A stretch of 64,000 nt of DNA. Source: Styela clava. Taxonomy: Eukaryota; Chordata; Ascidiacea; Stolidobranchia; Styelidae. The position numbers were made by a program, and so were the translations under genes. The stretch lies in NCBI RefSeq assembly GCF_964204865.1, contig NC_135256.1, positions 23,526,703 to 23,590,702 of the forward strand, read 5' to 3'. Shown here piece by piece: positions 31,209 to 56,102 of this stretch. The first letter of the stretch is position 1. The number at the start of each line of letters is the position of its first letter. Under the pieces are notes generated by a model, which saw only the letters and a program-made list of their open reading frames with translations, was not told the DNA's origin and did no database searches.

Positions 31209-31215
31209 GTTACAC

Positions 31216-34200
31216 CAATGACATTAAACAACATGATGCGCAACTCCGGCATTTTTGTCCGAAGATCGTATTCGATAGCACGCTCCAATGCACATACTTG
31301 ACGAGACGAAAACGAGCGGATGTGTGCTGCTTTCAAGGCGTAGCACGAATGGTGTTCGTGCCTGCTTTGACAGTTGTTGTCGATTTTAATGATATTTTTG
31401 AAAGTTGGGGTAAAAAGAAATCGGTAAAAGGTAAGGTGAATACTATTGTTGTATATCACACCCGGGCATCGCACTGTTAAGTACATGTGGGAAAGCCAGC
31501 CTTTGTCAAATACTACGAAGTTATTAATTCAGTACGGTACGTAGTTGCCCATTTGCCGAAATTACATATTTACTTACCCCTTATGGTTTCAAATAGTTCA
31601 TGCACCTCTAGTTAGATTTTTTTAATCAGTGAGGATATATACTCATTGTTGATTGCTGCTCATTGTAACATACTATTACGTATTCACTTTTATTTGCGTA
31701 TTGAATCAAAGTGTTAACAAGTTCACCTAACATTTCACTCATACCGGTCTATATTGTATAGTCTGATTTCTCAAGTATTTGGAGCCACGAATGCTTGTAA
31801 TTTTCCGACTAAACCCTTTTATTAGTTGGTTTATATACCAAATTCAGTAAAATATTTTTTAAATAAAACATGAGATATTGGATTTATTAGCTTTTCCATT
31901 CTGAATCATATAGACTGCTTTATTTATTCTTAACGAAAATTAATAAATCTCCTCTCTTTCTTCAGATGTGAAAGTTGTGGACAAACCTGTCTAAGCATTG
32001 TGAGACTCTTGCAGCACAAGAGGCAATAGCAGAAATAGTAAGTATATCAATCAAGAAATTAAGCCGACATAAAGCAAAACTTTCAACTATTCGTCTAATC
32101 TCAATTTCCTATTATTTATTCACAGGACAACTATAGCAGACGGGGAGATATCAGAAGTCTGGCGACATATCAGTGACAGTGTGATTCCAAGAAATATAAT
32201 GCAATTGAAAATAGAAAATTGCAATAGAAAAACAACCTATGGAGGCATGCAAAGACATTTGACCCTCCGGTAGAGTTGTGTATGGCCCCCACATCCTGCA
32301 GGGCTTGAGGAAAATAACTAAAAATTCCAAAGCGTAAGATTGCATAAGCGGTCTTATTTGTAAAAAGGCACACTGCACCTGTGTTATATTTGGTTCATCA
32401 ACTTTTGGTAGTACTATAGAAGAAATTCCGGAAGGGGTATAATCATCATTCATGATAAAATACTATCATATATTTTTTGAACAACTTCAATCTAGACCAG
32501 GGATCTCAAACTCGCGGCCCCAGAGAACTTCCAGTGCGGCCCTCGAACGCTTAACAATAATTGTAATAGTATTTTTGAAGTTTTTTTTTTATCTAAATGT
32601 AATAGATTTTTCAAACCTTCTAAAGTGAAATTGATTATTCACACAGAAAACAATTTACTGAAAGTAGTTTTGGAATATTAATTTTTTTGTCCACATTTTG
32701 ACCCAATTAAGAATACACATCAAGCTAGCAAAAGATTACTTGAATAAAACACTTGAGTAATTAAATTAAACGCAAAGTACATGAAGAAGGTGGCATTTTC
32801 GAAGAAAATGGCGGTTGTAACATTTCTGCTCTTCACAAAATTCTGAAGCACATTGTTTAATTTGTCATATTTCCGTCAATACAATCAAAAAACACAATAA
32901 GCTCAGCAGTCAATATGACAAATTCGAAGACCAACTTCGAACAGAAAATTTCCATGTGTTTGTATATTAATATAATTATACAACGACTTAGTTACTAAAA
33001 ATCAATATTAATAATAATTCAAGCAATCCTATGCCACGCAATGTAGTGCGAAATGTCTTGTCGAAAAAATCTGTCATTTGTTTTTTTACTGATCTATACA
33101 TGAAATGATAAGAGTAACTTTTTTGCATTACTGGAATTAATTAAACATTCGTAAAGATCCAGATAAACCCATGATCATGTGGCCTCGTTAGTTAGAGTTG
33201 GTACTATAAAATCATTTCAGACTGGCCTTAGTATGCTGGTGACACAAAAAAGATGCCAAACGCCAGGACAAATGTAATTATTAAAACATTGAGTTTATAC
33301 TGTAGTATTTTTGTTAATTTTAGGTTCATAAATTTAGATTAAGTTATTTTTAGTGTGTGTATTATTCTTTCCTTATTCAAAGCTTGTTCAAAAATGATTT
33401 TGATGGTTGTACATAGAATTTTACGATTTTTTATAATAAATACTGTAACTTGCAAATGTTGCAATAATAGTGGAATGCAAATCTTAATATGTAATTGCAT
33501 TTGAAATTGAAGAAAATAATAAAACTTAATCCAACTGTTTAGCTGCATCACAATATATGTCACAAACTAAAACTATCTTAAAAATATCTTTTAAGTATAC
33601 ATTATCAAAAACTGTTTGCGGCTCTTTTTACAATTTTCAAAATGCAATGCGGCTCTCGAAAACCCATGAGTTTGACACCACTGATCCATTCTAGACGATT
33701 CAAGCATTGCTTTGGGAAATTATATCACTTCAATTAAATTGAAATAATCTCGCTATATTAAATACGAAATCGTTGCTATCATAAAGGTGAACCAATTCAG
33801 CCACTCGAAATATATTGGCCTTCACAAAGTAATGGAGGCAAAATTGATAGTTCATGAGCTATGAACATTTGTTCTTTTCTTTGTCTTGAACTTTCCATAC
33901 TCCACAGCCCCTATTATTTTTTTTTAATTTTAATTACCATGTGATGGTCATACATATCTTTAACTTGTATTTTCTGTCATGATGTATTATCTCAATTTGC
34001 CAAACTATTAATTAATGTGCATATTTTGCTTCCAGATGACATAAATGTATTGTCATGTTTATTACCTCAGCTTGGAGTGTTGACAAGAAAAAGGTGCCAG
34101 TAAATTAGGTAAAAAAATTTTCAACTCATTGTTATAATCAGAATTCACAATCAATAGGAATTATAAACAGCCAACAATCAGTGAGAATTATATGCGAAAT

Positions 34201-34963
34201 CCCTCAGAATAAATTTGTCTAAAATCGGAGGAAGGCAAAAAATATAGGTAGTTTCATCCACACAAGCATTTCAAGAAGACTTGCTCGAGCCAAACTAAAT
34301 GAGCATCGTCAGGTGATCGGTAAGGCTGCAAGTTGAATTCAGCCCTGCAACCTCCTGCATAGAAGATAATATTAATTAGTGGGCTATGAGCTAAATTTAA
34401 ACAAACCTATCTACGATGCATTATGTACCAGCAATGTTACCTACGATTAACTGAATATGTAATATGTCTAATAAATTCACCTACAAAAGCAAGTTCGATA
34501 GGTGCAAACTTTGTGTTATGGAATTGTATCGCAGCACAGTTTTGTATGACACCCTCTTTAAATGAAATTTCAATGATTAAGCGCAAACATTAAAATTACT
34601 AACTTTGAACTTTGTCATTATCTGCAAAATGTTCCACACAAATCTTTCCGCTATCTCGTTTGTAATCTTCTCTGATAAAAAAAACGTCTATGATGTCCAG
34701 AATTGCTCTTTACAGCTTGCCTGTTATTCCAGCTTTCCAAGTAAGCAAAACTTCTTAGATATAGAGATTATTTTGTTTCGCTACAGGCGCAAAAAGGCAG
34801 GTACTACATGTAAAAAAGACGCCGAGTAGCAAATGCGAGCGGAAAACGGACGCGAAAGGCGACGAGAAATATGTGCATTGGAGCGTATCATGAAATACAA
34901 TGTTTTGCCTGTAGTCTTATGGAGTGACGTCAGAGTTGCCTATCATGTTGTTTAATGTCATTG
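31216..34963 (-). mobile_element. P-element-like (THAP) DNA transposon, copy 1
   Basis: Ends are perfect inverted CAATGACATTAAACAACATG. A subterminal CGCTCCAATGCACATA is repeated in inverted orientation about 80 bp inside each end. The 7-bp target duplication GTTACAC is at 31209-31215 and 34964-34970. The minus strand near the right end (about 34600-34760) encodes a THAP-domain relic (REDYKRDSGKICVEHFADND), which fits the P superfamily. The rest of the transposase is unrecognisable. It contains a nested hAT at 32498-33683. A second copy in opposite orientation is at 46648-50692. The 3.7-kb size is partly due to the nested insertion. Confidence 0.85.
32498..33683. mobile_element. hAT-type element nested in P-element copy 1
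   Basis: The ends are CAGGGATCTCAAACTCGCGG and, inverted, CAGTGGTGTCAAACTCATGG. Subterminal GCGGCCCTCGAACG at the left and GCGGCTCTCGAAAA at the right are typical of hAT-Charlie ends. The flanking 8-mers ATCTAGAC and ATCCATTC are poorly matched, consistent with an old insertion. The same element in the same place is in P copy 2. Confidence 0.82.
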
Positions 34964-35094
34964 GTTACACCAATGGTTCTCAAAGTTTTGGGGCCGTCGA
35001 TATACCGTCGCGATATCGCCCATTTTGAGAATCACTGTGCTTGACTTCCTGATGGAACTTTGAATAAATACTTGTCGAGGACAACCCGATGATA

Positions 35095-37375
35095 CGATCA
35101 TGAAAGTGTGAGACAAACAGAACAAATTTAAGAAAATTTGGAAAAGTGTGAGATAAGCAAGATATGTTTGAAACATGCGGTAAAAGTGTGGGACAAATAA
35201 TACAAAAGTGAAAAAACAGGTGGCACAAGAGTCCTAGGCTTGCACGTAATTGACAAAAATCAATTCCGTAATTACGGCCAAATCGATTACGTAATGACCC
35301 CGTTATTGCGATATTTTTTTCACACATTTAAACCTATCATAACAACTAATTTAATCCACTTCTATTCCGAATGGGACATCGAAGTTTGGTTTTCATATTC
35401 CCGGCAGTACTACACGCCGGCGACAGATGTTAAAGACAAATATCAAGGAGTGAATTCAAAATAATTTTATTCTGATTTTTATCTTTTATATTAGCTTTGA
35501 TTTTTTTTTTATTCACTTTATCACCAAATTTTATGCGATCAATTTTATCATTACCAACACTGGTAATATATTTAAGAAACGATAGTTTCACTTTTTTACA
35601 ATATCCGACTTTACTACTTAGTTAGCATTTTATAAGAATTATTGATGCCGACTTATTGACGATATTCCGAATTCCATGCTTCATTTTACATTAAATCATT
35701 TCGCGGCCTAAAAGTTATAACATTATTTGCGATAAATTTAGATCAAATATTAATTATTCGCGCATTATTTAAAATACTGTACTTATATGACATGCCTTCT
35801 CCGAAAATACAAAGTTATATCGCAAAACAATGCATTTTGTAACATTTATTTTGCACTCATGAAAAGATTAATAAGTCGACAATCCTATTTGCCAAGATTG
35901 ACACAAGTTTGGTCAAGTGCCGGTGGTATTCGAGTCGACGATAAATCAAAATAAGTTGCCGCATTTGGTAAAGACAGGTGATCATATTTGGCCGACATAT
36001 TGCGAGGCATTGTGAAAAACATATTGAGCAATGCCAAGTCCGGACAGATATATAACGATAAAATCGGTAACAGAACATCAAGATTTTGTAATAGAAAATG
36101 GATCTCGCGCAGAATAAACACGTGAAATCCCGCCGTATTGTTGTTTCTCTGCCGTCTCAATCGCTTCACCGATACCGAAAAGACTTAAGTTGCGTTGGTT
36201 CATTACGCAATTTCTCTTCCGTCTTTATATTGCTGTTTGATGAGCGCGAAATTAATTATCACGGCATTTACAAATAGACCATGTTTTATAAGTTGATCTC
36301 TTACATTCTTTAGTCATTTCACCCGAAGAAGTTGAAACCAGGTGTGTTGACGTCCATCGGTCTCAATACAATTCTATTCCTTATCTACGGTTAATTGGCC
36401 ATCCTAGATAAGTTGATAATAGGTTAGTAAATGACGCGTTATGCCTTCCCCATCTGCCTAACAAGAGAGAGAAAAACGGCTGCGAATACCGGAACTCTAA
36501 CTTCTTTTACTTAAACTTTAATTTTTTACAATCGACGGAATTGACTGCTCTGAAGAGAGCTCGTTTCAATCGCGAAAGCGCTCGACCAATAATTACGACT
36601 TTACGTAATTCGTAACTTCGCTTCCGTAACTCGAAATAATTCCGTAAATTACGTGCAAGCCTACACAAGACTATTAGAACAAACAAGTGTGAAAAGAGCA
36701 AGACACGTGTAGGCAAAACAGGACATGTTGCAGCAAATGTCAGGACGGTCAAGTTTGACTAGTGTGAGTCAAGCATGGCAAGAGGAGCAGGAGAAATGTG
36801 GAATTAGCAGGACAAGTGTGATACGCGAAATATAAGTTTAATTCAATCATGACAAGTGTGGCAAAAGCAGAACAACTGTGATAAAAGCAGGACAAGTAGA
36901 AAACAATAATGATATTGGGGTGTCCCAAGTATTTATCGTTTGGAGTATTCTAGACAAGTGTGAGACACGCAGGACAAGTATGGAACAATCGAAGCAAATT
37001 CGATTCATTCAGGGCATGTGTGGAAAAAGCAGGACAAGTTTGAGATAAGCAGGACAAGTGTTGGACAATAAATACAAGTTTGGAAAAAGCACGACAAATC
37101 TGGGGAAAGCATGAAAAGTGTGAGACAAGAAAAACGGGTTTGGTGAAAGCTAGACAAATGTGGGAAAAGTAGAGCAAGAGTTCGACAAGCAAGACAACTT
37201 CTATCCAATCAGGACGTGTATAGAACAAGCAGGAAAATTGTAGCAAAAGCAGTAGGCTACAAGCGTGGTATAAGCGTAAATAGATACTACTACAAGAATA
37301 TGTGCGACAGCAGAGTGAGTGTGGGACAAGAAAGACAAGTGTTATTCAATCAGGGTGACTCAGAACATTTGATTG
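35095..37375. repeat. Degenerate 20-bp-period minisatellite, split by an insertion
   Basis: From about 37030 to 37250, successive 20-nt units can be laid under each other (ACAAGTTTGAGATAAGCAGG, ACAAGTGTTGGACAATAAAT, ACAAGTTTGGAAAAAGCACG and so on). Units continue more loosely from 36664 to 37375 and also in 35095-35234. The consensus is near ACAAGTGTGGGAAAAGCAGG. The two blocks are separated by the element at 35235-36663. Antisense frames through it (for example 36950-37246) show a 20-residue periodicity caused by the repeat and are not credible genes. Confidence 0.8.
35235..36663. mobile_element. 1.4-kb hAT-like non-autonomous element inside the minisatellite
   Basis: Exact 17-bp inverted ends TAGGCTTGCACGTAATT. 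Subterminal regions are rich in TTACGTAATTACG-type motifs. The flanks CACAAGAG (35224) and CACAAGAC (36664) look like an 8-bp target duplication, with three extra bases (TCC) at the left. No transposase is recognised. Confidence 0.75.
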
Positions 37376-37517
37376 AAACAGTAATCATCAGGCAAATATG
37401 TTTTGAAACAATCGCTCTTCAAATATGTAAACGACTAAACGTAGGCTACATAGCGCATGCGCCAGTTAGCAAAAATAGAATTGAATAAGGACTCGGTTAA
37501 AATAACATAATATATAT

Positions 37518-37700
37518 ATACCCAGGTGACCGTACATTTGAACCCATGTGTATATCCACGGGTTCAATCTATATGCGGGTGCTAAAACACATGGGTTAGG
37601 GTTAGTATGAGTTCAACTATCCGAAAAACAAAAAAAATTCCATAGGTGCAATAGCATACAGGTGCAATTGTCATGGGTTCAAATGTAATGGAACCATATA
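37518..37700. repeat. Short inverted-repeat element
   Basis: ACATTTGAACCCATG near the left end is inverted at the right as CATGGGTTCAAATGT, with ACCGTACATTTG outside. Internal GGTGCAATAGCATACAGGTG is a partial direct repeat. It contains a chance GGGTTAGGGTTAG. It is likely a small MITE, but I see no target duplication. Confidence 0.5.
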
Positions 37701-37796
37701 CCCAATCGAATCCAAGGAGATCCAAATCTCGGCCCATCCCAAAAACAAATTACCGTTAACTTTTATGGCACATCTCTTTATGGTTTTAGATGAGTT

Positions 37797-38118
37797 AAGA
37801 TAGGATTTACATATTTATCCCGGGGCTTATACACGGCTTATCCATATGGCGAACCACGGCCTCTCGTCCGGTTACCATTCCAAGTCTGGTATGGGATTAG
37901 TTATATTGTTTGTTTTTCGGAAGCATGGACTTGGTGGTGGAGGAAGCCGTAACCGACCAGCGGTTACGTGAACCCCCCAACGACGGCGGGGAGTCCAGCA
38001 ATCCTCTCGCACATAACCATCCCTGCATGTGATTCGAACCTGCGAACCCACGCAGAGTAATTAGAGGTGCGGTGGCGAGCGTATTCCTAACGCTTAGCCC
38101 GTTGAGCCACACCGCCGC
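37797..38118 (-). repeat. tRNA-derived SINE (family A), near full length
   Basis: Reverse-strand copy of the 18.7-kb SINE. The A box (complement of CCCGTTGAGCCA, about 38098-38109) and B box (complement of GATTCGAACC, 38031-38040) are intact. The body and the GGATAAATATGTAAATCCTA tail are near identical. Confidence 0.8.
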
Positions 38119-38129
38119 GCCGTGCGGTG

Positions 38130-38485
38130 GCGCATTGTTTGTAGTTAGCCGCGCCGGTTGCCCGAGCTTTCAGAAATTATTGCGGATGCACAGGAAGGCA
38201 TGTGGATATACCGTAGAAGGCCAATATCACCGATAACGCTATTGTTCTTGAAGACGAGTAAATTGGGTCCATGTTCACAACTCGCCGCTGCATTCCGTGT
38301 CAATCATCGTTAGTTCATTAACTATTAACACTGTAACAGGTAATACGAATTGTGGTAGAGTTTATCTCCCCACACGAACCTCTATGCAGGATAACCACAG
38401 GTGCGGTTGCAAGTGCAGAAGTGTATTCCTAACGTCTCAACGTATAGCAGGTTGCGCCAAATCGACCAGCCTGTTTGACTGACAA
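38130..38485 (-). repeat. SINE-like repeat (family B), second copy
   Basis: Reverse complement of the 19.3-kb family B repeat. It shares CAATATTACCGATAACGC-type, CTTGAAGACGAGTAAATTGG and GTTCACAACTCGCCGCTGCA blocks and the GACCAGCCTGTTTGAC end. It is adjacent to, and in the same orientation as, a full SINE-A. Confidence 0.6.
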
Positions 38486-38506
38486 TAAGTTTGGAAAGGA
38501 ATTTCC

Positions 38507-38540
38507 GAACAATGAGCATATGTATATATGCTCATTGTTC
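38507..38540. repeat. 34-bp near-perfect palindrome
   Basis: 15-bp arms GAACAATGAGCATAT and complement around a 4-nt spacer GTAT. Related half-sites (TATATATGCTCATTG) occur near 60350, and a similar ATGAGCATATGCTTAT near 59290. Confidence 0.7.
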
Positions 38541-38799
38541 CGAAATATCATTTCGATTGGCATTCTGAGTGAGTGATATCGAAAAAGTGCGAATCAATTA
38601 TAATCGGGCACGCATATTGTAGTATTTCATAGCGATAATACTTTTATTAAATTGTAAGTTTAGGCCCAACGACGTGTTACGTTGAAATAATTAAATCAGA
38701 CTCGCACCATTTATCAGACTCCTGTCATCACGATAGGGAAATCCCCAACAGACGATACAAATGAAATAAATGATTCGTAGGCGAGGGTGCTTATAAACG

Positions 38800-40835
38800 A
38801 TGGGAAAATTGACTGCTGGATCTTTCCTGTTTAGAACGGGGGACATATTGTTTCATCCGTCTGCCGTCGCTTCAAAACTTTTCTCAACAAAAATTAACGT
38901 TAGGTCATTAGTAGAATGTAAAGTTGTAGCTATCAAACCGTTTTGGAAACTCACAACAAAGCTCTCAAATGTCAACTACAACATTGACACGAATTTGTCA
39001 GACAGAATAAAAATTACACATGACGAAAATCCCTCAAATAATCGGAGTAAGTATAATATTGAAATTGGAGAATGTTTTTGAGCTTTCAAATGTAGATACT
39101 TGACTTAAGTAGCACTTGATCTTTCTATATCGTTGTTATCCTGTTAAGAATGCCTTGTTAAGAATGGAGAGTTGATGATTCAGGTACACATATTTCGAGA
39201 GTGAGGAAGACGATAAGATGGCTTAATCATATGGGGGACTACGGCCTTTTTTGTTTCATAAGCATGGACTTGATGGTGTAGGAAGTCATAATGAACCAGT
39301 GGTTACATCTGTACATAAACCACGTATCCTTTTGCACATAATAAAATCTCATGATCCGAGGTATGATGTTCCCCCCGCAATGGCGATGAAAGCGAACTTT
39401 GAAAACAGCATTTAAAACATGAGCTCTTTACTTTTTAATATCATTATCGTATTTTTTCAACATTTTTAAACAGGCAGGGTTGAATCACTAGACATAATAG
39501 AAGATGATGTGACAGAATCTTTGATTATTAGTGCAACCGGTCATAAAAATGAACAAACTTTGAACATTTCTGTACCGCTTCGAGTAGGTATGCATTATTT
39601 TTTAAAAAATCCTCTTGTTTAAAAAATATTATTCTAGATTTTGATGTAATTTTCAGATCTGAAGGTTCTTGCAGAAGGATGTGCAACGGGTAGCTTATCA
39701 AATATGGAAAACAGTGCTCTAATTGTCAAAGCAGAACAACATAATATAAAACTCATGAATATTAAGGTTAGTTGAGCATATTTATCTTTATGGTATTAAA
39801 TTTCTGCAATGTTAATTTGGTGGATATCCTGCAATTTTCAGAGCAATGTAGTTACTGTAGAATCCAATGAGCATATCTCATGTTGCAATTCAATCAGAGG
39901 CGATATTAGTCTAAAGAGTGAAAGTGGAAATATAACAGCCAACAAACTCCAAGGAAACACAATCTCATTGTCAACCAGTGAAGGATTAATTTCTGTGGGA
40001 GATCTGTATGCAAAAGATTTGTCTCTGGTTGCAGATGATGGCAGTATTAGGTACTCAGTTTAATTGTACAAACATCATTTTTAGGATGAGTTAATCCAAT
40101 GTCCCAGCCGGGAAGAAAATATTGCTTATTTAATATTTATAATAAACTATTCAAACTTAATTGTGTTTCCAGGATTACAAGTATCCATGGCGATGCTGAA
40201 CTGCAAGCAAAAGGTGATATATCTGCAGGAACAGCTGAAGGGAAGTTTAATGCATGGTCAGAGGATGGCAATGTTCAGGTCTTTCTAACTGATAAAGTCG
40301 AATCAGCAGACATTGTTACAAACACAGGTATATTTATTGCAATATATCCGAACATATTTATAATTGCTCTGTAAAAAATCCTCTTGCAAATGGCTTCTTC
40401 TAACATCTGATCTAGTCAACTTGGTACTACAATCAATACGATAATTATTGTCATTATTAGCGAACTGTTTTATTTGTTAATTCTAGGCAACATCTCTCTA
40501 GCAATGTCTGAGAAACTAGGGTGCCAAATTGACGTTGAAGCTCAAGAGATCGATGACACTGCAACAGCATCTATGTTCAAAGATGTACACAGACAACATC
40601 GAGGTCCATGCTCAAGATACAGGGGTATAATATTTTTTATTTTATGAGAACCTTGAAAAGTCAAGCCAGGTTCTTCATTCACATTTGTATTTGAAAAATT
40701 TTCACTATTCTCATTTCAGCTGAAGTCAATGGAGGTGGACCACGAATAAGTGTAAAAGCCCTTGGAGGAATGGTCAAGTTGAGCACATCATCATGGCTAG
40801 AAGCAGTTTCTTTATTCAATGCGAAAAATCAATGA
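38800..40835 (+). CDS. FAM185A: FAM185A-like protein, 7 coding exons
   Basis: Conserved animal protein of unknown function with beta-strand repeats of the DUF4097/adhesin-like type. I read exons 38800-39046, 39474-39587, 39657-39766, 39842-40050, 40173-40327, 40487-40624 and 40720-40835. All have GT/AG borders and compatible phases, giving 362 codons. Repeat-like segments include ISLKSESGNITANKLQG, ISLSTSEGLISVGDLYAKDL, LVADDGSIRITSIHGDAEL and RISVKALGGMVKL. The frame of exon 6 is doubtful near its 3' end. The frame that joins the last exon gives KDVHRQHRGPCSRYR, while the +1 frame gives the more family-like YTDNIEVHAQDT. The stop codon lies 2 nt from the LAMTOR5 stop on the other strand. I chose the start ATG at 38800 because it opens the longest exon-1 frame; a mitochondrial presequence is possible but not clear. 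The assignment rests on pattern, not alignment. Confidence 0.65.
39200..39390 (-). repeat. Old SINE-A copy in intron 1 of FAM185A
   Basis: Diverged reverse SINE-A blocks: GGGGGACTACGGCCTTTTTT, AAGCATGGACTTGATGGTG, AGGAAGTCATAATGAACCAG, TGGTTACATCTGTACATAAA and TTTTGCACATAA. It accounts for much of the 427-bp first intron. Confidence 0.6.
40811..40816 (-). promoter_or_regulatory. LAMTOR5: LAMTOR5 poly(A) signal inside the FAM185A last exon
   Basis: TTTATT on the plus strand reads AATAAA on the minus strand, 21 nt past the LAMTOR5 stop codon and within FAM185A coding sequence (codons for SLFNAKN). Confidence 0.65.
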
Positions 40836-40837
40836 CA

Positions 40838-41205
40838 TCAAGACTGCAAAGCAGTTGAAGTGAGAATAACACCGGTACAAACATCATCTGATTGTTTAAT
40901 TGTCATTGATCTATATTTTCCATCGTTTGTCTCCAATACAATCACAGGTACACTCTGCAAAACATAATTTCTTTTAAGTTGAGTCTGCAGAGAAAACTTC
41001 AAAACTAAGTGGCATTGATATTCACCTGCGGCTTTTTTGCAAGTCTTTTCGCCTCATTACATAGGGCTGATACCTGCCCTGCTTGGCTAGATCTGCCCTC
41101 TCCTCGCACCCCTGTGCATAAACCTTTTGTATCCGCCATTACTACCCCAACGACATTTGGTCGGTCCATGATTAGATCCAATTGATCTTCTGTACTGGTC
41201 TCCAT
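40838..41205 (-). CDS. LAMTOR5: Ragulator complex subunit LAMTOR5 (HBXIP), 2 exons
   Basis: Small roadblock-fold subunit of the Ragulator complex on lysosomes, which anchors Rag GTPases for mTORC1 activation. Exon 1 (41205-41026, 60 codons) begins METSTEDQLDLIMDRPNVVG. It contains the family pattern VGVVMADTKGLCTGVRGEG and ends at CAG|GTGAAT. Exon 2 (40954-40838) follows TTTTGCAG, is in phase, and gives SVPVIVLETNDGKYRSMTIK and on to TALQS before the TGA. The total is 98 aa (human about 91). The 71-bp intron is the only one. It is third in a minus-strand series after NAGK and UXT and converges with FAM185A. Confidence 0.88.
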
Positions 41206-41524
41206 TGCAGTTTAAAAGTAGAAATAGCAGACTAAGTTATAAAACTAAAAATCTGAGAATAAGAAGAAAAGGTTGAACCTATTCATGGCCATAACCATGG
41301 AGAAATTCTGACTAGTGACTGCTTTTATATTAAATTTCAGAACCATGCAGTATAGTAAAATTGTCAATCACTACTGGGCATAGTCCACAGCATGAATTTG
41401 TCAAAATAAAATGCTTAGTTTTAGGGTTTTTCTTTCAGTGGAAAGCTGACTTTTATTCAATTAACTTCCTTCAACATCTTGAGCGGTTTCACCAGCCAAT
41501 ATGCCATCTTGATTTCCAGGAGCT

Positions 41525-42328
41525 TCATGACAACCCTTGTAGCTCTCTCAAGCCTTCAAGTACAAGTCGAATTTGTGCTCTGACATGAGCCATGTCTTTT
41601 GAAAAATTTTCAGCTTGTTTGTTTAGTATTTCCACCCTTTTGTCAATAAATTCCAAAGCCTCCTTGTATGTATACTCCACATAAAACCCATAGCCGACAC
41701 ACACAAATACTTTTGATGGATCATCGCTGAAAAACAATACGCAGCTAAAAGAAGAGATTTTTCTTAAATTGACACATTAGTAGATTTACAAGATCTCTAA
41801 ACATAATCTGTGAACCACTTATTTCTGTGGTAAATCAATACTGCCATAATTGAGTTGGTGTAGCCCGCATTAGAAATCTAAATGAATAGGCTACATATAC
41901 TTACACAACAGCTTGAGCGAAAAAATTACATCCGATATCTACTTGCGTCTTCAAAGGTTGGTTGTTTTTGTTAGCCTTACATTCTTCAAGTTTCTGTAAA
42001 GTGGTTTGTAGTTGCAAATATTCTGAAATTTCGCCATAAACTTTATCCCTCAAATCATTTAGATTTCTGAATTCAACAAGAGAATGTGTTTCATATTTGA
42101 AGTTATATGCAGTGAATGATGCACAGAAATTGTAGGTTGACCATTGCATGTGAAACATAGACAAGTTATTAGCAATGAGGAGCTGACATGTTTGCGACAT
42201 TTGCGTCGTTTGGGTAATACCAATAATAGCTTTGAAGAATTTAATACTTACTTTAGATCACCCCTTAAAGTTTCGTTTACGAAATGTTCATATTTCAACA
42301 CTTTGTCATCAATATTAGCTTTGTCCAT
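41525..42328 (-). CDS. UXT: UXT, prefoldin-like subunit, 3 exons
   Basis: Alpha-type prefoldin-like protein that works with URI in the R2TP/prefoldin-like (PAQosome) chaperone complex and in transcription. Exons: 42328-42252 (MDKANIDDKVLKYEHFVNET), 42066-41905 (NLNDLRDKVYGEISEYLQLQ ... QVDIGCNFFAQAVV) and 41726-41525 (DDPSKVFVCVGYGFYVEYTY ... LEGLRELQGLS). Donors and acceptors are canonical and phases close at both junctions, giving 146 aa (human 157). Two coiled-coil helices frame the central beta hairpin, as in the family. An AATAAA signal lies at 41457-41452 on the minus strand. It lies between NAGK (301 bp upstream) and LAMTOR5 (319 bp downstream). Confidence 0.93.
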
Positions 42329-42629
42329 CTGATTTATACATTAATTTTAAAACAAATTCTGAGAAAAATTAAAAACACAATTATGTAATTAATTGCAAAT
42401 ATATGAAATTCTTAATGTCAACATTACAGAATCTAACTATTAACCACTGATTCAAATGTTTGAATAGAAAAGTATTTTATTTAAAAAATCACTTTTAGCA
42501 CTCACTAAATCTCGATTTTACATTTATTCAAAAAAAAAAGATTTGGGTGATAAATTGCACATGATGAAAGATTGCTATAAATTGACCATGAAATCAGTTC
42601 ATGAATAATTTGACAGTTGCTTGCAATGA

Positions 42630-43634
42630 TCATAGTGCTTGTTTATGAAGCAATGTAGAATTGTTCGTTAAATCCATTTCAATGACTTCCGCACAATCCT
42701 TAGAGCCAAGTAAAGCTGCTCCAATAGCACTTGACTTTGCTGGACGAAGAAGTGTAATTGCTGAAATCTTCCTCTTCGACTCATGCTTGAGACATGACAC
42801 AAATGAATCTTTTAAGAGAGGCCAACTTTTCCACACAGAACCCACACATATTATTTGCAAACCATCATGGCTCTCTAACAAATCATTAGAAACCGCTGGC
42901 AGTACTGCTAAAATATGTTTTGCTTGATCACGGCCAGCTTCAGCAAACACCAATTTACATAGTGAATCATCACCATTTGTAGCGGCTTCTGCTAGCAATT
43001 TAGTAAAGCCCGCAAAGAATGTCTTGCTTGCATTCGTGTAGAAATGATCCAACATTCCATCATTGTCGATCACTTTAAAATACTCATGCATGAGCTTGCG
43101 CACGGCATCTGTTTTAGCAGGAGACTGATTTAAATTATCATCATCATCAAACAAATATTTAATTGCACGATGAGATATCCACCATGCACCACCTTCATCC
43201 CCCATAAACGGCCCCCATCCTCCACATCTTGTAACCTTTCCATCTTCGCTTCCATAAATACAATTTGACCCAGTACCAGCAATGAGTACAATTCCACCTC
43301 CTTTGCAAACAGTTGCCAGTGACCCAAGAGTGTCATTATGTATAACAATGCTATTGGAAAGCTTTGGATATTTTTCATTAAATTTATTTACCATAGACTC
43401 TTGTGCCCCACTGAGACATAGTCCAAGAGTTTTCAAGCACTGCTCGGCTGGTATTCCAGCTTTCTTTTTTGCCTCTTCTACAATGGAGTTTATTGTGTCA
43501 GTTGCTTCATCCAACCCGACTTGATAAGCATTGGAACATCCACCATAAGCCCAGGCCAACTCTTCTCCCCTTTCATTCAAAATTACTGCACTTGTCTGGG
43601 TACCCCCACCCTCTACTCCTCCATAAAAACTCAT
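42630..43634 (-). CDS. NAGK: N-acetyl-D-glucosamine kinase
   Basis: Cytosolic kinase that converts GlcNAc and ATP to GlcNAc-6-phosphate in amino-sugar salvage. The 334 aa (human 344) belong to the ASKHA/BcrAD-BadFG fold. The N-terminal phosphate loop is YGGVEGGGTQTSAV. The substrate Asp region is VIHNDTLGS. The second loop GIVLIAGTGSNC lies near residues 114-125, then GGWGPFMGDEGGAWWI near 137-152, and ICVGSVWKSWPLLKDSF near 262-278. The coding sequence is a single exon. The start MSFYGG is right at the loop. TTTACAG, 17 nt upstream, could be a 3' splice or trans-splice site. AATAAA on the minus strand lies at 42528-42523. A 23-bp tandem duplication sits just upstream. Confidence 0.97.
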   Translation of the reverse strand: MSFYGGVEGGGTQTSAVILNERGEELAWAYGGCSNAYQVGLDEATDTINSIVEEAKKKAGIPAEQCLKTLGLCLSGAQESMVNKFNEKYPKLSNSIVIHNDTLGSLATVCKGGGIVLIAGTGSNCIYGSEDGKVTRCGGWGPFMGDEGGAWWISHRAIKYLFDDDDNLNQSPAKTDAVRKLMHEYFKVIDNDGMLDHFYTNASKTFFAGFTKLLAEAATNGDDSLCKLVFAEAGRDQAKHILAVLPAVSNDLLESHDGLQIICVGSVWKSWPLLKDSFVSCLKHESKRKISAITLLRPAKSSAIGAALLGSKDCAEVIEMDLTNNSTLLHKQAL

Positions 43635-43653
43635 TTTCTCGGCCTGCTGTAAA

Positions 43654-43699
43654 GCTTTTTACGAAAGTAAGTAGATGCTTTTTACGAAAGTAAGTAGAT
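43654..43699. repeat. Perfect 23-bp tandem duplication upstream of NAGK
   Basis: Two exact copies of a 23-nt unit starting GCTTTTTACGAAAGTAAG (43654-43676 and 43677-43699), 20 nt upstream of the NAGK start codon on the minus strand. It may lie in the promoter or 5' UTR. Confidence 0.9.
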
Positions 43700-43884
43700 G
43701 TAGGTATTATAGGATGCACTATTACAGGATCTGTAACTTGAATATCAGAAGTGTTTAAACCCCTGAACTCGTAAGCTGATGCAAATACTGAAAAGAATTG
43801 GATATAAGCGAAAGCATCATACGTCACCCATGCGATTGTCCTATACAAATTAAAGTTGGGCAGCTAGGCATTGATAGAAGGAAT

Positions 43885-44185
43885 CACTTATAAGTGGTTC
43901 ATTGAATGATCATGCGAAGCGCTAGGAATAGCTCGTCACTGTACCCCTGGATTTGTTTGACTTCTGTGGGGGATAATTATGTGCAAGAAGATGGCCAGAC
44001 TTCGTGCCCCCTCACTTGTGATCACCCTTTGCAGATCCGCATCCTGTGTGGATAATCATCTACAAAAGGATTGCTGGACATCTCGCTCGTGTGGTGGTCG
44101 ATTATGATTTCCTTTACCATCAATCTCATGCATCTGAAACAAATAACTGGCTAACTAATTGACTGGTAGCAGGTCTAGATAGAGA
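43885..44185 (+). repeat. Diverged SINE-A copies
   Basis: Traces of the SINE head (GTGGTTCATTGAATGATCAT, GCGCTAGGAATAGCTCGTCA) and body (ATTATGTGCAAGAAGATGGC, AGGATTGCTGGACATCTCG, ATTTCCTTTACCATCAATCT, GAAACAAATAACTGGC) are present. The CAAGAAGATGGCC and CAAAAGGATTGCTGG motifs suggest two overlapping old copies. Confidence 0.5.
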
Positions 44186-44879
44186 GCTTTTATTTCCACA
44201 AAACAATGTTTCAAATAAAAAAGAACAGACAATATTACAGATTTTTATCTGAATGCAGTGCAGTGGATAATTTAAACATTGAGTTGTGATGGTCAGTATG
44301 CAAGACCTTTGCAGGCCCGAAGGCTCCCGACCATTTTCTTCACTGTGATTAAGCTTTAATAATGGATTCATTGGATTGTAACAATATTAAATTTAAAAAA
44401 AAATAGACAGAAAATGAGTTTATTTTTTTTTCTATGATTCAACACTATATAATCATGTTTATTGTGGAGTTCAGAGGACATGTGTAAAATTATACTACAC
44501 TGTGATCTGGTACAATACTATTCACTTCCTCAGATACCGTCTCGATATATAAAAAAAATAGGAATAAACAATCACAGATTCAATCATTAAACAAAACTAG
44601 AACTATATTACATCAATAATAATGTAAGACATATTAATGGTATAGAAGCGTATACTGATAAGTTTAAACTCTGATATACAATCAGAAGTTGAAAATGTAA
44701 CATCACATAAATAATAAAACATGTTTCACTTATCAAATATATTATTATTAATGGATGAGAAGGCAATTATTCTGAGTATTTTGTGAGCAAGAGCTTTTTC
44801 ATTTTCTTAGAAAACAATGGAGAGGAATTTTTTTCTTCAAAATATTTATTTTGAAATGTTTTGTTGTTTCATTAACTTT
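44186..44879. other. AT-rich spacer, nothing recognised
   Basis: No gene seen. Part may be the extended 3' UTR of the LINE fragment that follows. Confidence 0.35.
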
Positions 44880-45310
44880 ATAAGCTATTAACCTGAATCA
44901 ACAAGCGTTGTAGGTGTCGCTGCCTGAAGACCTCTTGAGGTCCCTCGCGACTCCTGTCACACAATTCAAGTTAGTTTCCACTTGTATTTGTAATAATTTT
45001 TCATATATTGTACCATGTTTAAATTGTGTTGACGAATGAATGAGGATTGATTGATTTTATTTCAAATGAGACATAACCCCAAACCTGGACACCATTGTAT
45101 TTTAAGGATTTTTTCTCAATACCAGTTAAAACCTGAGGTAGAAAATAAGACCTGGTTTTCTTCGATCTAGTACCATATTTATGTACATCTTTTAGATTTG
45201 TAAAATATTCCCCAAAAGCAGGGGGAAGAAAACCATTTTCATGGCGATGCATAAATTTTGCTATTTCCAAAGTATGCATACCTGACAGCTGTAGAAATGC
45301 ATGCTCACAA
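44880..45310 (-). pseudogene. LINE 3' fragment (C terminus of RT protein and 3' UTR)
   Basis: The minus-strand frame reads HAFLQLSGMHTLEIAKFMHR, HENGFLPPAFGEYFTNLK and KKSLKYNGVQVWG. This parallels the C-terminal region of the 21-kb LINE (LQLKELYISEVGKFMYRYEN, VLLPEYFQNFF, KKSLKLEGINVWQ) but is a different family. The 3' UTR has a hairpin-prone GAGTCGCGAGGGACCTCAAG ... AGCGACACC segment. That segment recurs at about 56880-56945 and 61125-61180. Confidence 0.7.
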
Positions 45311-45311
45311 G

Positions 45312-45585
45312 AGGCCATGGTTCGCCATATAATTACAGGAAGTCCTCGACTGACGACGTTGTTCCGTTCTCGAGAAGCGGTGTAATTTATGATGTAAATG
45401 ACGAGGACCAATGAGCCCAAAGCACTGATTTTCTTGATCTCAATGATCCAGTTTAAGGGCTTAGATATTACAGTACAGTATTACCTTTTATATTTTCATG
45501 AAGTGCGTTCGTAACCTTGAAACAGCGTTAGTCTAAACCCGAGGACTTCCTGTAAGTCGTTTTATCCTCTTTTCTCTGCCATGAG
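45312..45585 (+). repeat. SINE-A fragment split by a mariner-like MITE
   Basis: GAGGCCATGGTTCGCCATAT ends at the insertion. The SINE resumes at 45553 with AAGTCGTTTTATCCTCTTTT, equivalent to AAGGCGTCTTATCGGCTTTC in the full copy. Confidence 0.6.
45336..45552. mobile_element. Mariner/Tc1-like MITE
   Basis: A 217-bp element with perfect 12-bp ends CAGGAAGTCCTC / GAGGACTTCCTG, flanked by TA on both sides (45334-45335, 45553-45554). It has no transposase. Dinucleotide TA duplication and short ends fit the Tc1/mariner group. Confidence 0.65.
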
Positions 45586-46160
45586 AGTTGAGGGCCATAA
45601 AGCAAGGATGCTGCACGAACCGTCCAAGCCAGACACTAAAACATTGGAAGAATATTTTTACGCAAAATGATCAGACTAGGAATTTAATTGTAAGTGCCAA
45701 ATCGCGAAAACATTTTTGAAAAAGTTCAAAATTTTTGCAATGACTGCTGTACTGGTACTAGAATATGATGTAGCCTATGTAATGTTATGCGTGTTTAAAT
45801 GTAAACAGTAAATGAAACAGTACCGGTATCTGCATAATAATTAAACAGTGTAAAGGAGACGGACCGGTACATGTTCAAGATCTTACTGGACTAAGACACA
45901 GATGTGCGACATGCCGACCGCGACCGGTGTCTGTCCATAACCAGACACGGTGCCTGAATCGAAACCAGTATCGTAACTTCCAGACTTCTCAGGCGGTCAG
46001 TCTTAGTCCTGTTAGGCGTGGACACCTTACTGCCTTGTACTTGCAGCATTAGAAAACCACGGCATCCAGCAGGCAAATCCATACCCAACGACTTGTTCTA
46101 GCTAGACAAACATCGCCGGCTGAAAGTCTCGTGACTTTTGGCAATCAAGTTAGCCTGCAA

Positions 46161-46517
46161 CAGGCCTGCACAACATACCCGGCCCGCGAAACCTTTTATT
46201 GGGGCCCTTGAAATGGTTTCAGGGGATACCGGTATTATTAGGGCTAAAGAAATTGGCTTTTTAGCAATATATGTTTGTGTATTTGTATTGTAATGTGAGT
46301 GTCTGATACAATTGTGTGTATGTGCGTAAAACGAGAATCTACGGCGCGTGCGTGTTTGACCAAGAACTCTCGATTAGTCCAACAACTGGTGGTTAGACAA
46401 GCATTTTCGCTTTCAGTTTATTTGACAGCAGTTAGTTTGTTGTGTATAGGCCGCGAGCCGAGGCCCTGAAAAACGCCTAGAAAGTGAGTTTCGTAGCGCA
46501 CATCAGGTAACTACCTG
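46161..46517. mobile_element. Left end of a hAT-like element beside the LTR retrotransposon
   Basis: CAGGCCTGCACAACATACCC and GGCCCGCGAAACC match the left end of the 6.8-kb hAT relic. The following 300 bp show no frame. The last 60 bp (GTGAGTTTCGTAGCGCACAT ... GGTAACT) recur at about 56490-56525, on the far side of the LTR retrotransposon. Confidence 0.55.
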
Positions 46518-46843
46518 CGCCAGATTGGTACTGTAATGATTATTATGCTGTTTTCTGTTATTGTTGTGCGCACGTTCTTGATTACGTGATCTGTAGTTGT
46601 GTAAATTTGTTTACGACAATACATTCGAGTCTCGGCTTCTGTTGGAGCAATGACATTAAACAACATGATAGGCAACTCTGACGTCACTCCATAAGACTAC
46701 AGGCGAAAGATTGTATTTCATGATACGCTCCAATGCACATATTTCTCGTCGCCTTTCGCGACCGTTTTCTGCTCGCTTTTGCTACTCGGCGTCTTCTTTA
46801 CGTGTAGTACCTGCCTTTTTGCGCCTGTAACGAAAGAAAATAA

Positions 46844-47011
46844 TCTCTAAATCTAAGAAGTTTCGCTCACTTGGAAAGCTGGAATGGCAGACAAGCTGTG
46901 AAGAGTAATTCTGGACATCATAGACGTTTTTTTATCAGAGAAGATTACAAACGCGATAGCGTAAAGATTTGTGTGGAACATTTTGCAGATAATGACAAAG
47001 TTCAAAGTTAG
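46844..47011 (+). pseudogene. THAP-domain relic of the P-element transposase
   Basis: A 55-codon open stretch between stops contains SWNGRQAVKSNSGHHRRF, then FIREDYKRDSVKICVEHFAD. The Trp, the C-x2-H (CVEHF) and the spacing match the second half of a THAP zinc finger, the DNA-binding domain of P transposases. The first C-x2-4-C pair would lie upstream, where a stop (TAA at 46841) breaks the frame. Copy 1 carries the same block antisense at about 34600-34760. Confidence 0.6.
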
Positions 47012-47953
47012 TAATTTTAATGTTTGCGCTTAAACATTGAAATTTCATTTAAAGAGGGTGTCATACAAAACAGCAAAACTGTTTTTACTTCTATTGACGG
47101 TGCTGTGGTACATTTCCATAACACAAAGTTCGCACCTATCGAACTTGCTTTAGTAGGTGAATTCATTAGACATATTACATATTCAGTTAATCGTAGGTAA
47201 CATTGCTGGTACATAATGCCTCGTAGATAGGTTTGTGTCTAAATTTAGGAATTCAGCTCATAGCCCACTAATTAATATTATATTCCATGCAGGAGGTTGC
47301 AGGGCTGAATTCAACTTGCAGCCTTACCGATCACCTGACGATGCTCATTTAGTTTGGCTCGAGAAAGTCTTCTTGAAAGACTTGTGTGAATGGGAACTAC
47401 CTATATGTTTTGCCTTCCTCCGATTTTAGGAGACAAATTTATTCTGAGGGATTTCGCATATAATTCTCATTGATTGTTGGCTGTTTATAAATCCTATTAA
47501 TTGTGAATTCTGATTATAACAAAGAGTTAAAAATATTTTTACGTAATTTACTGGCACCTTTTTGTGTCAATACTCCAAGCTGAGGTAATAAACAAGACAA
47601 AACATTTATGTCATCTGGAAGCAAAATATGCACACTAATTAAATGTTTGACACATTGAGATAATACACCATGACAGAAAATACAAGTTAAAGATATATAT
47701 GACCATCACATGGTAATTAAAAAAAAACTAATAGGGGCTGTGGAGTATGAAAAGTTCAAGACGAAGAAAAGAACAAAAATTCATAGCTCATGAACTCTCG
47801 ATTTTGCCTCCATTGCTTTGTGAAGGCCAATATATTTCGAGTGGCTGAATTGGTTTACCTTTATGATAGCAACGATTTTGTATCTAATATAGCGAGATCT
47901 TTTTCAATTTAATTGAAGTGATATTATTTCCCAAAGCAATGTCTAGAATAGAT

Positions 47954-49379
47954 CAGTGATGTCAAACTCATGGGTTTTCGAGAGCCGCATTGCATTTTGG
48001 AAATTGTAAAAAGGGCCGCAAACAGTTTTTGATCATGTATACTTGAAAGATAGTTTTAGTTTGTGACATATATTGTGATGCAACTAAACAGTGGGATTAA
48101 GTTTTATTATTTTCTTTAATTTCAAATGCAAATACATATTAATATTTGCATTCCACTATTATTGCAAGTTACTGTATTTATTACAAAAAATCATAAAATT
48201 CTATGTACAACCATCAAAATCATTTTTGAACAAGCTTTGGATAAGGAAAGAATAATACTTAATCTAAATATATGGACCTAAAATTAACAAAAATACTACA
48301 GTATAAACTCAATGTTTTTTTAATTACATTTGTCCTGACGTTTGGCATCTTTTATGTGTCACCAGCATACTAAGGCCAAGCTGAAATGATTTTATAGTAC
48401 CAACTCTAACTAACGAGGTCACATGATCATGGGTTAATCCGAATCTTTGCGAATGTTTAATTAATTCCAGTAATGCAAAAAAGTTACTTTTATCATTTCA
48501 TGTATAGATCAGTAAAAAAACAAATGACAGATTTTTTCGACAAGACATTTTGCGCCACATTGCGTGGCATAGGATCGCTTGCAATATTACTGATATTGAT
48601 TTTTAGTAACTAAGTCGTTGTATAATTATATCAATATACAAACACATGGAAATTTTCTGTTCGAAGTTGGTCTTCGAATTTGTCATATTGACCGCCGAGC
48701 TTATTGTGTTTTTTCATTGTACTGATGGAAATATGACAAATTAAACAATGTGCTTCAGAATTTTTGTGAAATGCAGAAATATTGCAACTCCCATTTTCTT
48801 CGAAAATGCCACCTTCTTCATGTACGTTGCGTTTAATTTAATCACTCAAGTGCAGTGTTCCCTCTAAGGTGTGCGCGCGCACACAGCTTTCAGAGGCCGC
48901 GCACACGCATAGATTTACTGCGCACAGACGTAGTTCGATGTAATGTAACAATGTGCTCGGTTGGCAGGTTGAGAAAGTTTGTTGTTGACCCATTACCCGG
49001 TTAGAACGCCAAAATTTATTCATTGGTTTTTGCACAAATATTAGTCATTTCCAAAAAAGTGCGCACACACCAAAATTTCTGCACACACATACTACAAAAA
49101 TTAGAGGGAACAGTGCTCAAGTGTTTCTCATTCAAGTATTCTTTTGCTAGCTTGATGTGTATTCTTAATTGGGTCAAAATGTGAACAAAAAAAAATCAAT
49201 TTTCCAAAACTACTTTCAGTAAATTGTTTTCTGTGTGAATAATCAATTTCACTTTAAAAGGTTTGAAAAATCTATTACATTTAGATAAAAAAAAAACTTC
49301 CAAAATACTATAACAATTATTGTTAGGCGTTCGAGGGCCGCACTGGAAGTTCTCTGGGGCCGCGAGTTTGACATCCCTG
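47954..49379. mobile_element. hAT-type element nested in P-element copy 2
   Basis: Same element as 32498-33683 in opposite orientation. Left end CAGTGATGTCAAACTCATGG, right end complement of CAGGGATGTCAAACTCGCGG. Flanking 8-mers GAATAGAT / ATCTAGAT are partly alike. It is longer than in copy 1 because of the MITE at 48853-49115. Confidence 0.82.
48853..49115. mobile_element. 263-bp MITE with perfect 8-bp target duplication
   Basis: The ends are CAGTGTTCCCTCTAA and TTAGAGGGAACAGTG (inverted, one mismatch). GCGCGCACAC-rich subterminal segments are present. CTCAAGTG is duplicated at 48845-48852 and 49116-49123. P copy 1 holds the empty site at 32750-32757. hAT-type by target length and ends. 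Confidence 0.93.
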
Positions 49380-50827
49380 ATCTAGATTGAAGTTGTCCAT
49401 ATATATAACAGTATTTTATCATAAATCATGATTATACCTTTTCCTGAATTTCTTCCATAGTACCACCAAAAGTTGACGAACCAAATATAACACAGGTGTA
49501 GTGAGTGACCCGTAATCCTCATTTTCCAAAGCTGTTTTAAGTATGGCTGGCGTGTTTTGTGCCTTTTTACAAATAAGACCGCTTATGCAATCTTACGCTT
49601 GGAATTTAGTTATTTTCCGCAAGCCCTTCAGGATGTGGGGGCCATACACAACTCTACCGGAGGGTCAAATGTCTTTGCATGCCTCCATAGGTTGTTCTTC
49701 TATTGCAAACATTTATGGAGTAGGGCCTACTCTAATTATATTTCTTGGAATCACACTGTCACTGATATGTCGCCAGACTTCTGATATCTCCCCTTCTGCT
49801 ACAGTTGTCCTGTGAATAAATAATAGGAAATTGAGGTTAGACGAATAGTTGAAAGTTTTGCTTAAGGTCGGCTTAATTTATTGATTGAGATACTTAATAT
49901 TTTTGCTATTACCTCTTGTGCTGCAGGAGTCTCACAATGCTTAGACAGGTTTGTCCTCTGAAGTAAGAGAGGAGATTTATTAATTTTCATTAAGAATAAA
50001 TAAAGCAGTCTATATGATTTAGAATGGAAAAGCTAATAAATCCAATATCCCATGTCTATGTAAAAAATGTTTTACTGAATTTGGTATATAAACCAACTAA
50101 TAAAAGGGTTTAGTCAGAAAATTACAAGCATTCGTGGCTCCAAATACTTGAGAGATCAGACTATACAATATAGACCGGTATGAGTGAAATGTTAGGTGAA
50201 CTTGTTAACCCTTTGATTCAATACGCAAATAAAAGTGAATGAGCAATAGTATGTTACAGCAATGAGTATATATTCTCACTGATTAAAAAAATCTAAATGG
50301 AGGTGCATGAACTATTTGAAAACATAAGGGGTAAGTAAATATGCAATTTCGGCAAATGGGCAACTACGTACCGTACTGAATTAATAACTTCGTAATATTT
50401 GACAAAAGCTGACTTTCCCACATGTACTTAACAGTGCGATGCCCGGGTGTGATATACAACAATAGTATTTACCTTACCTTTTTCCAATTTCTTTCTACTT
50501 CAACTTTACAAAATATCCAGAAAATCGACAACAACTGTCAAAGCAGGCACGAACACCATTCGTGCTATGCCTTGAAAGCAGCACACATCCGCTCGTTTTC
50601 GTCTCGTCAAGTATGTGCATTGGAGCGTGCTATCGAATACGATCTTCGGCCAAAAATGCCGGAGTTGCGCATCATGTTGTTTAATGTCATTGGTTGGAGT
50701 AACGTGTGTTTTCTGTCCTCACTTGTACAGCACTAGACAGGAGAGTTTAGTTAATTAATGGCGTGGTGGCATGCGTTGAAAACGAATTTCACGTTATCAC
50801 TTTGAAATAATCTTCAAGAGGACTGAA

Positions 50828-55908: not shown

Positions 55909-56102
55909 CGCCAGATTGGTACTGTAATGATTATTATGCTGTTTTCTGTTATTGTTGTGCGCACGTTCTTGATTACGTGATCTGTAGTTATGTGAATTTG
56001 TTTACGACAATACATTCGAGTCTCGGCTTCTGTTGGAGTAACGTGTCTTTTCTGTCCTCACTTGTACAGCACTAGACAGGAGAGTTTAGTTAATTAATGG
56101 CG
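55909..56102 (+). repeat. 3' LTR
   Basis: 194 bp, CGCCAGATTGGTACTG ... TTAATTAATGGCG, directly after the purine tract. It differs from the 5' LTR at three sites by eye (two in the GATCTGTAGTT(A/G)TGT(G/A)AA block and one in AACGTGT(C/G)TTTT). It is uninterrupted, so it preserves the site where the P element entered the other LTR. Confidence 0.9.

Follow-up and report, generated by a model that had tools for sequence, protein, structure and literature searches.

How did two P-like transposons, lying in opposite orientations within one stretch of a tunicate genome, come to carry the same hAT element at the same internal position? We examined this question in a window of 64,000 base pairs (bp) from Styela clava (assembly GCF_964204865.1, contig NC_135256.1, positions 23,526,703 to 23,590,702 of the forward strand). 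All coordinates given without a locus or chromosome name refer to this window. A preliminary description, made from the sequence alone, proposed that the hAT entered a P element first and that the resulting composite then moved. It is very probable, in our judgment, that the two copies, here called A and B, belong to one high-copy, non-autonomous P family that had a single hAT insertion, was amplified in trans, and has relatives with a split transposase. The features that define the copies are as follows.

31209-31215, no strand: target duplication GTTACAC, 7 bp, left side of A
31216-34963, plus strand: copy A, P-like composite with nested hAT, 3748 bp
31216-31237, plus strand: left terminal inverted repeat of A, 22 bp
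31280-31296, plus strand: left subterminal inverted repeat of A, ACGCTCCAATGCACATA
34870-34886, minus strand: right subterminal inverted repeat of A
34942-34963, minus strand: right terminal inverted repeat of A, 22 bp
34964-34970, no strand: target duplication GTTACAC, 7 bp, right side of A
46648-50692, minus strand: copy B, composite inverted relative to A, 4045 bp
46725-46741, plus strand: subterminal inverted repeat of B, one end
50612-50628, minus strand: subterminal inverted repeat of B, other end

As the preliminary description had stated, each copy has perfect inverted ends of 22 bp and its own exact 7-bp duplication, GTTACAC for A and GTTGGAG for B. The 18-bp end CAATGACATTAAACAACA occurs without mismatch at 31216 (plus), 34946-34963 (minus), 46648 (plus), and 50675-50692 (minus), and four matches were reached in none of 100 shuffles. 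The 17-bp subterminal inverted repeat ACGCTCCAATGCACATA is present at both ends of A and of B. Aligned in inverted orientation, the copies match in three blocks with 90.7-92.3% identity; by substitutions alone, they diverge by 5.4% in the P part and 5.0% in the hAT, and about 55 bp of B (49504-49557) are absent from A. Homology between them ends at the element termini.

The inverted arrangement, the spacing of about 12 kilobases (kb), and the shared nested hAT could also be read as the two arms of one inverted segmental duplication. Yet the 7-bp duplications differ, A and B have no homology in their flanking DNA, the 200-bp flanks of both lack any match among the flanks of other copies, and hundreds of further copies exist in the genome. 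The scenario is refuted by the site into which B inserted, a long terminal repeat (LTR) of a retrotransposon whose features, including open reading frames (ORFs), are listed here.

46518-46647, plus strand: host retrotransposon 5' LTR, portion left of B, ending in GTTGGAG
50693-50763, plus strand: host retrotransposon 5' LTR, portion right of B, starting with the second GTTGGAG
50780-55750, plus strand: ORFs of the LTR retrotransposon hosting B, with aspartic protease and RVT_1 matches, both slightly under the Pfam cut-offs
55909-56102, plus strand: 3' LTR, paralogous empty site of B

When the flanks of B are joined over a single GTTGGAG, they are identical to the 3' LTR at 191 of 194 positions. 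The 3' LTR is therefore the empty site of B, which excludes segmental duplication and indicates that B landed after the retrotransposon did. Since the two LTRs differ by only 1.5%, against the greater divergence between A and B given above, the A and B lineages probably separated before B landed. We accordingly reject segmental duplication, to which we attach virtually no credence, and retain the earlier claim that both copies arrived by transposition.

The nested element lies at the same internal position in both copies, as had been claimed, and in B it has itself received an insertion.

32490-32497, no strand: left copy of the hAT target duplication, ATCTAGAC, in A
32498-33683, plus strand: non-autonomous nested hAT in A, 1186 bp
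33684-33696, no strand: right copy of the hAT target duplication, with 5 extra bases, in A
47954-49379, minus strand: nested hAT in B, with the third element within it
48853-49115, no strand: third element, hAT-like, 263 bp, in the hAT of B, with 8-bp duplications CTCAAGTG

Membership in hAT is indicated by the 8-bp target duplication ATCTAGAC on the left and by CAG..CTG-type ends, CAGGGATCTCAAACTC and CAGTGGTGTCAAACTC. Elements of this superfamily prefer nTCTAGAn-like insertion sites, which ATCTAGAC fits. No ORF of more than 75 amino acids (aa) lies wholly inside the nested hAT. The third element is missing from A, which thus represents its empty site.

We next consider how far the composite extends beyond the window. 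In the 376.6-Mb assembly, the exact 18-bp end is found at 956 places (477 forward and 479 reverse), and its reversed control at none. By manual count, the first 100 listed places include 40 adjacent plus/minus pairs, 28 of which measure 3.70-3.85 kb. We fetched 20 regions containing 21 pairs, namely the first 15 listed and six others, mostly of odd size (the pairs passed over included ones of 3552, 4023, and 13974 bp); together with A and B, these make 23 copies. Since all were picked by exact 18-bp ends on both sides, their perfect ends are partly a matter of choice. Sequence of the hAT is present in all 23, covering 573 to 1191 of 1191 bp. Target duplications, the expected mark of further transposed copies, are 7 bp long in 21 copies and 8 bp in L009, and L021 has none. 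Among the 7-bp duplications, 20 of 21 are distinct, the two that are alike coming from the adjacent copies of L026. They follow the motif GTNNNAC (both strands: G 26/42, T 35/42, three N positions, A 35/42, C 26/42), and one is exactly GTAGTAC. The terminal and subterminal inverted repeats of A and B, along with duplications of 7 or 8 bp in 22 of 23 copies, agree with the P superfamily. For A and B, neither of the two refuting outcomes named in the preliminary description was observed: their homology does not run past the termini, and more copies with 7-bp duplications exist.

Individual copies were also inspected. When 200-bp flanks were compared, 27 match rows appeared among the other copies, mostly offset-varying repeats or the L026 neighbor. 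Over 171 bp, the right flanks of L018 and L021 are 100% identical; given that L021 also has no duplication, single copies may have other histories. In L026, two composites sharing GTTAGAT lie one 7-bp duplication apart, forming a tandem of element, 7 bp, and element. L024 (2680 bp), taken from its size to be free of the hAT, has in fact lost internal sequence but retains most of the hAT. The long pairs L025, L028, L010, and L020 were considered as autonomous copies and set aside, as they carry inserts of other sequence; those in L025 and L028 have transposon-like ends.

Did the hAT enter once, before amplification, or many times? Allowing up to three mismatches, the left junction of P and hAT is found at 463 genome places (control, 0), compared with none for the same P site without the hAT. 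The exact pattern of a hAT excision footprint is likewise found at no place in the genome, in a search whose positive control was limited to junctions seen in the 23 copies. In this set, the left junction is readable in 22 copies and the right one in 18. The left hAT duplication is ATCTAGAC or a one-base variant, and the right one contains the same 5 extra bases wherever it can be read (18 of 18), a fingerprint of one insertion event. Pairwise divergence of the P part is strongly correlated with that of the hAT (r = 0.92 over 253 pairs, with none of 2000 permutations as high), and the medians are 5.7% and 5.5%, respectively. Ten of the 23 copies, A included, have a neighbor within about 1.1% in the P part, while the nearest to B is 5.0% off. 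Independent hAT insertions into many P copies at a favored site would draw on the resemblance of ATCTAGAC to the nTCTAGAn-like preference. However, the common 5-bp irregularity and the lack of any empty sibling within three mismatches speak against this model, and the parallel divergence of the two parts refutes it. We therefore reject repeated insertion as extremely improbable. The results support a single hAT insertion that came before amplification, and the composite is a mobile family; the order of events first proposed is upheld, and the count of copies with and without the hAT agrees with it.

To place the composite among P elements, we searched the genome with PF21787, the RNase H domain of P transposases, which gave 44 matches here and none in 14 control genomes. 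One of them, at locus L049, belongs to the closest transposase-bearing element seen (C18:4775463-4785616, 10,154 bp; hereafter the C18 relative), which has a 402-aa frame matching PF21787 (4.8e-20), PF21788 (6.2e-13), and PF21789 (4.5e-6), and an exon of L060 matches PF21787 at 1.7e-20. The start of the 402-aa frame was considered as a lost catalytic residue, an idea that was dropped, since L060 has that part in a separate upstream exon. The P parts of the composite retain pieces of such an element, including one from a second gene, gene 2, that is described below.

32111-32372, plus strand: remnant of gene 2 in A; 32111-32178 and 32289-32372 match L049 2025-2093 and 2380-2463 at 80-81%
34260-34334, minus strand: P-transposase remnant in A, 88% DNA identity to the L049 transposase ORF
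34593-34719, minus strand: region 82% homologous to the THAP-like region of L049, with no direct THAP detection

The composite's P pieces are 69-90% identical to the C18 relative: 88% over 75 bp of the transposase, 82% in the THAP-like region, and 75-81% in patches on the other side. Its ends are identical to those of the composite at 20 of 22 positions. The right end reads CAATGACATATAACAACATGAT followed by GTCAGAC; the left end, assigned by pattern, reads GTCAGAC followed by the same variant as CAATGACATATAACAACATGAT and was read in L064, so that the 7-bp target duplication GTCAGAC stands on both sides. The right subterminal repeat is exact and the left one agrees at 15 of 17 positions, with the same left/right asymmetry, GATGCGC/GATAGGC, as in the composite. 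At the site homologous to the hAT insertion, the C18 relative reads AATCTAAACGATATGAGCATTGC with no insert. A composite end lies exactly 7 bp beyond its right end, across GTCAGAC (L049:8418-8424), and these 7 bases also stand just outside a composite left end at C18:4789247-4789279; a composite thus seems to have inserted into the duplication of the C18 relative. Ends of the C18 type are rare, with 12 exact places in the genome.

Membership in the P superfamily, as first claimed, is thereby borne out by a relative with P-transposase domains and by the 75-bp piece shared with its ORF. The THAP-finger relic fared less well. Read in nine frames with X at stops (left half of A excluded), the P parts of A and B contained no THAP or P family at E ≤ 1, the only matches being two unrelated weak ones; nine frames from B, L013, and L025 were likewise negative for both at E ≤ 10. 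A relic is directly undetectable, then, and what stands is the 82% DNA homology to a region of L049 that matches THAP at E = 0.002, below the cut-off. The search for an autonomous relative likewise succeeded in part: the C18 element has P-transposase domains, with the THAP match and the end differences already noted.

In L049, gene 2 is a 290-aa frame (1946-2815) on the opposite strand, facing the transposase, and remnants of it are present in the composites. It has no credible match in Pfam, PDB, or NCBIfam. It aligns, though, to the C-terminal part of a contiguous P transposase of the L031 type, the part matching THAP9_C (blastp E = 4e-7). With hhalign, four gene-2 rows against two C-terminal rows gave 94.8% (E = 4.8e-8, 143 columns), and a thinner comparison, of three gene-2 rows (two near-identical) against three near-identical C-termini, gave 49.4% (E = 1.7e-4). 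A gene-2 hidden Markov model run against 1183 ORFs from the fetched loci and the window recovered C-termini of the L031 type at E = 9e-8 to 2e-6 and that of L036 at 8e-5; no reversed ORF passed the inclusion threshold, the best of them scoring 0.022.

We then combined by hand the 104 matches of a transposase search, in which 103 of 640 candidates were scored, with the 20 matches of a gene-2 search. Eleven gene-2 rows fall at nine places with a transposase match within 2.5 kb; the two are convergent at all nine and on the same strand at none.

Convergent places: L049:1946-4673, C6:18978563, C19:15771903, C2:30759413, C9:14680096, C5:24739852, C6:5758577, C4:5434074, C5:1923352

The nine places are not all independent, as those on C2 and C19 are copies 96-99% alike. 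The remaining nine rows, at eight places, are without a paired transposase match, and some are probably composites; at C14:3322201, a transposase match 5 kb away in divergent order was left unpaired. At C2:30758173 and C19:15771208, the transposase and gene-2 matches end 51 bp apart and the open frames are separated by 24 bp, and the C2 element has a THAP frame exactly at the cut-off. A candidate inverted match for the ends of these two-gene elements was discarded, with no acceptable duplication there. In the C18 clade, then, the C-terminal domain is not in the transposase polypeptide and lies on the opposite strand at every paired place; in the other P clade (L031, L034, L036, and L038), the catalytic part and the C-terminal region share one strand. 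Identity between the clades is 22-28% over long alignments, with higher values in short stretches.

Is gene 2 a functional gene? The ratio of nonsynonymous to synonymous substitution rates (dN/dS) is 0.37 for L065/L069, 0.35 for L061/L067, and 0.83 for L061/L068; it is about 0.5 for L049/L066, on 9 differences, and L061/L060 have 5 differences and a dS of 0. As judged from these comparisons, there is moderate support for selection on gene 2, some copies of which are broken. Alternatively, gene 2 may be an inverted transposase tail that has decayed and lost its function, as stops in some copies (one TAA in C2:473936), the ratio of 0.83 in one pair, and that of about 0.5 on few differences in another would suggest. 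Such decay is harder to reconcile with open frames of 290 and 314 aa, with the low ratios of the first two pairs, and with a convergent layout kept at nine of nine places even where identity between the gene-2 parts is as low as 24-35%. We regard a functionless gene 2 as unlikely, though by no means negligible.

We propose the following scenario for the family. A hAT of about 1.2 kb entered, in a single event at ATCTAGAC, a P element derived from a two-gene lineage; this P element had lost internal sequence by then or was to lose it later. Since its ends remained intact, the composite could be mobilized whole, and a P-type transposase acting in trans would have cut and pasted it together with the hAT. 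It would thereby have reached some 460 or more places, mostly with 7-bp duplications at GTNNNAC sites, and the hAT, for which no empty sibling or excision footprint was found, would have been a passive passenger. In the C18-type clade, one strand carries the THAP, RNase H, and GTP-binding parts, while the THAP9-type C-terminal domain belongs to the convergent gene, and the two products together would correspond to the single polypeptide of other P elements. The data show the family with its ends and duplications, the order of insertion, the empty sites, and the convergent layout; we infer that the transposase of this clade is the mobilizer, which would bind the subterminal repeats and cut the shared ends in trans, and that it requires both of its split halves. 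The broader hypothesis, that this P lineage runs on a catalytic protein and a C-terminal domain supplied in trans from a convergent gene, reached a layout like that of RAG1L/RAG2L independently, and drove the P/hAT chimera to hundreds of copies, is tentative and falls a little short of an even probability.

Another P transposase, one that went unseen and may have been lost or be confined to other individuals, might instead be the mobilizer. The copies with a close P neighbor point to recent movement, yet none of the elements seen was a complete partner with exact ends, and C18-type ends are rare. On the other hand, the C18 relative shares 20 of 22 end bases, the subterminal repeats and their asymmetry, a 7-bp duplication, and internal homology with the composite; in addition, another gene-2 copy, with 98.75% identity over 801 bp, points to recent movement of the C18-type family. 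An unseen mobilizer is a possibility of real weight, albeit short of probable. Several other points weigh against mobilization by the C18-type clade, or against parts of the wider explanation. No element read combines exact composite ends with a complete, unbroken transposase gene model; the ends of the C18 relative differ at 2 of 22 positions, and its THAP match is below the cut-off. An autonomous partner may be among the candidates outside the 103 of 640 that were scored, the intact L031-type P genes bear ends unlike those of the composite, and gene 2 lacks a credible Pfam match of its own. As for the copies, the 23 were chosen on exact ends and are uninformative on how often ends decay, the footprint pattern was without a positive control beyond the junctions read in them, L009 has an 8-bp duplication, and L021 has none and shares right flank with L018.

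A second P family (L029, L031, L032, L033, and L035, on C9, C13, C6, and C10) has open frames of 662-834 aa. Its copies are about 98-99% identical and share a boundary near CCACTGAACT, and the family looks recently active. We considered the intact L031-type genes as the mobilizer and rejected them, as their shared boundaries show other ends.

Galileo, a P-superfamily element of Drosophila, makes 7-bp duplications with the consensus GTAGTAC, and single copies are reported to contain nested insertions, among them the hAT BuT4 (PMC2775673); its terminal repeats are unusually long (PMC3688188). The composite resembles Galileo in its superfamily and duplication length, and its GTNNNAC motif includes that very consensus in one copy. 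In contrast, the nested insertions of Galileo are each found at a single breakpoint, whereas that of the composite is part of a family of hundreds. In Anopheles gambiae, P-derived miniature inverted-repeat transposable elements (P-MITEs) are non-autonomous, with terminal inverted repeats, a non-P-like center of debated origin, lengths of 205-2450 bp, 8-bp duplications, and up to 310 copies (PMC1562414). Unlike these, the composite measures about 3.75 kb, has mostly 7-bp duplications, and contains a foreign part identifiable as a hAT with its own duplication. Since P-MITEs with foreign middles and 7-bp duplications in Galileo are known, the composite alone falls within known types.

The novel part is the convergent split transposase, both halves of which are presumed to function; we found no description of such an arrangement among the open-licence papers listed by our searches. 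Drosophila P and zebrafish Pdre2/THAP9 have a THAP domain, an RNase H domain with a GTP-binding insertion, and terminal and subterminal repeats (PMC7776569, PMC10983969). These elements make 8-bp duplications and hold the C-terminal domain in one polypeptide, whereas the C18 clade has it in a separate convergent gene. RAG-like transposons carry RAG1L and RAG2L convergently in one cut-and-paste element with 5-bp duplications (PMC7204232). Their likeness to the C18 clade is in layout only, as the proteins differ. Unlike RAG2L, gene 2 is a homolog of the tail of other P transposases; to our knowledge, no such homology has been claimed for RAG2L.

As a natural record of a transposon carried by a transposon, the composite family is unusually clean: it offers hundreds of replicates, a readable order of events, and empty sites not only for B and the third element but also, in the relative, for the hAT. 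Judging from this family, a P-type transposase appears able to go through many rounds with a substrate that contains a 1.2-kb foreign insert. The split layout, if true, would be another case, besides the RAG-like elements, of cut-and-paste machinery in two facing genes, and it makes testable the idea that the P C-terminal domain can act as a separate subunit.

Some further features were noted. Directly right of the duplication of A, a short stretch (34971-35037) has hAT-like ends (CAATGGTTCTCAAAG...TTTTGAGAATCACTG). Naming the retrotransposon that hosts B as BEL/Pao is a reading of its ORFs and not a family assignment. A repeat beginning TAGGCCGCGAGCCGAGG at 46446-46513 adjoins this retrotransposon, with an 84% similar stretch downstream at 56459-56525, and the L028 composite carries an insert resembling it. 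An Rfam scan of the window gave no match at gathering scores. On the minus strand, 14233-18435 is a single ORF of 1400 aa that, on reading, is a putative largest subunit of RNA polymerase III. Finally, 57201-58638 and 62046-63876 are further transposase relics, with matches to DUF4371 and the hAT dimerization domain.

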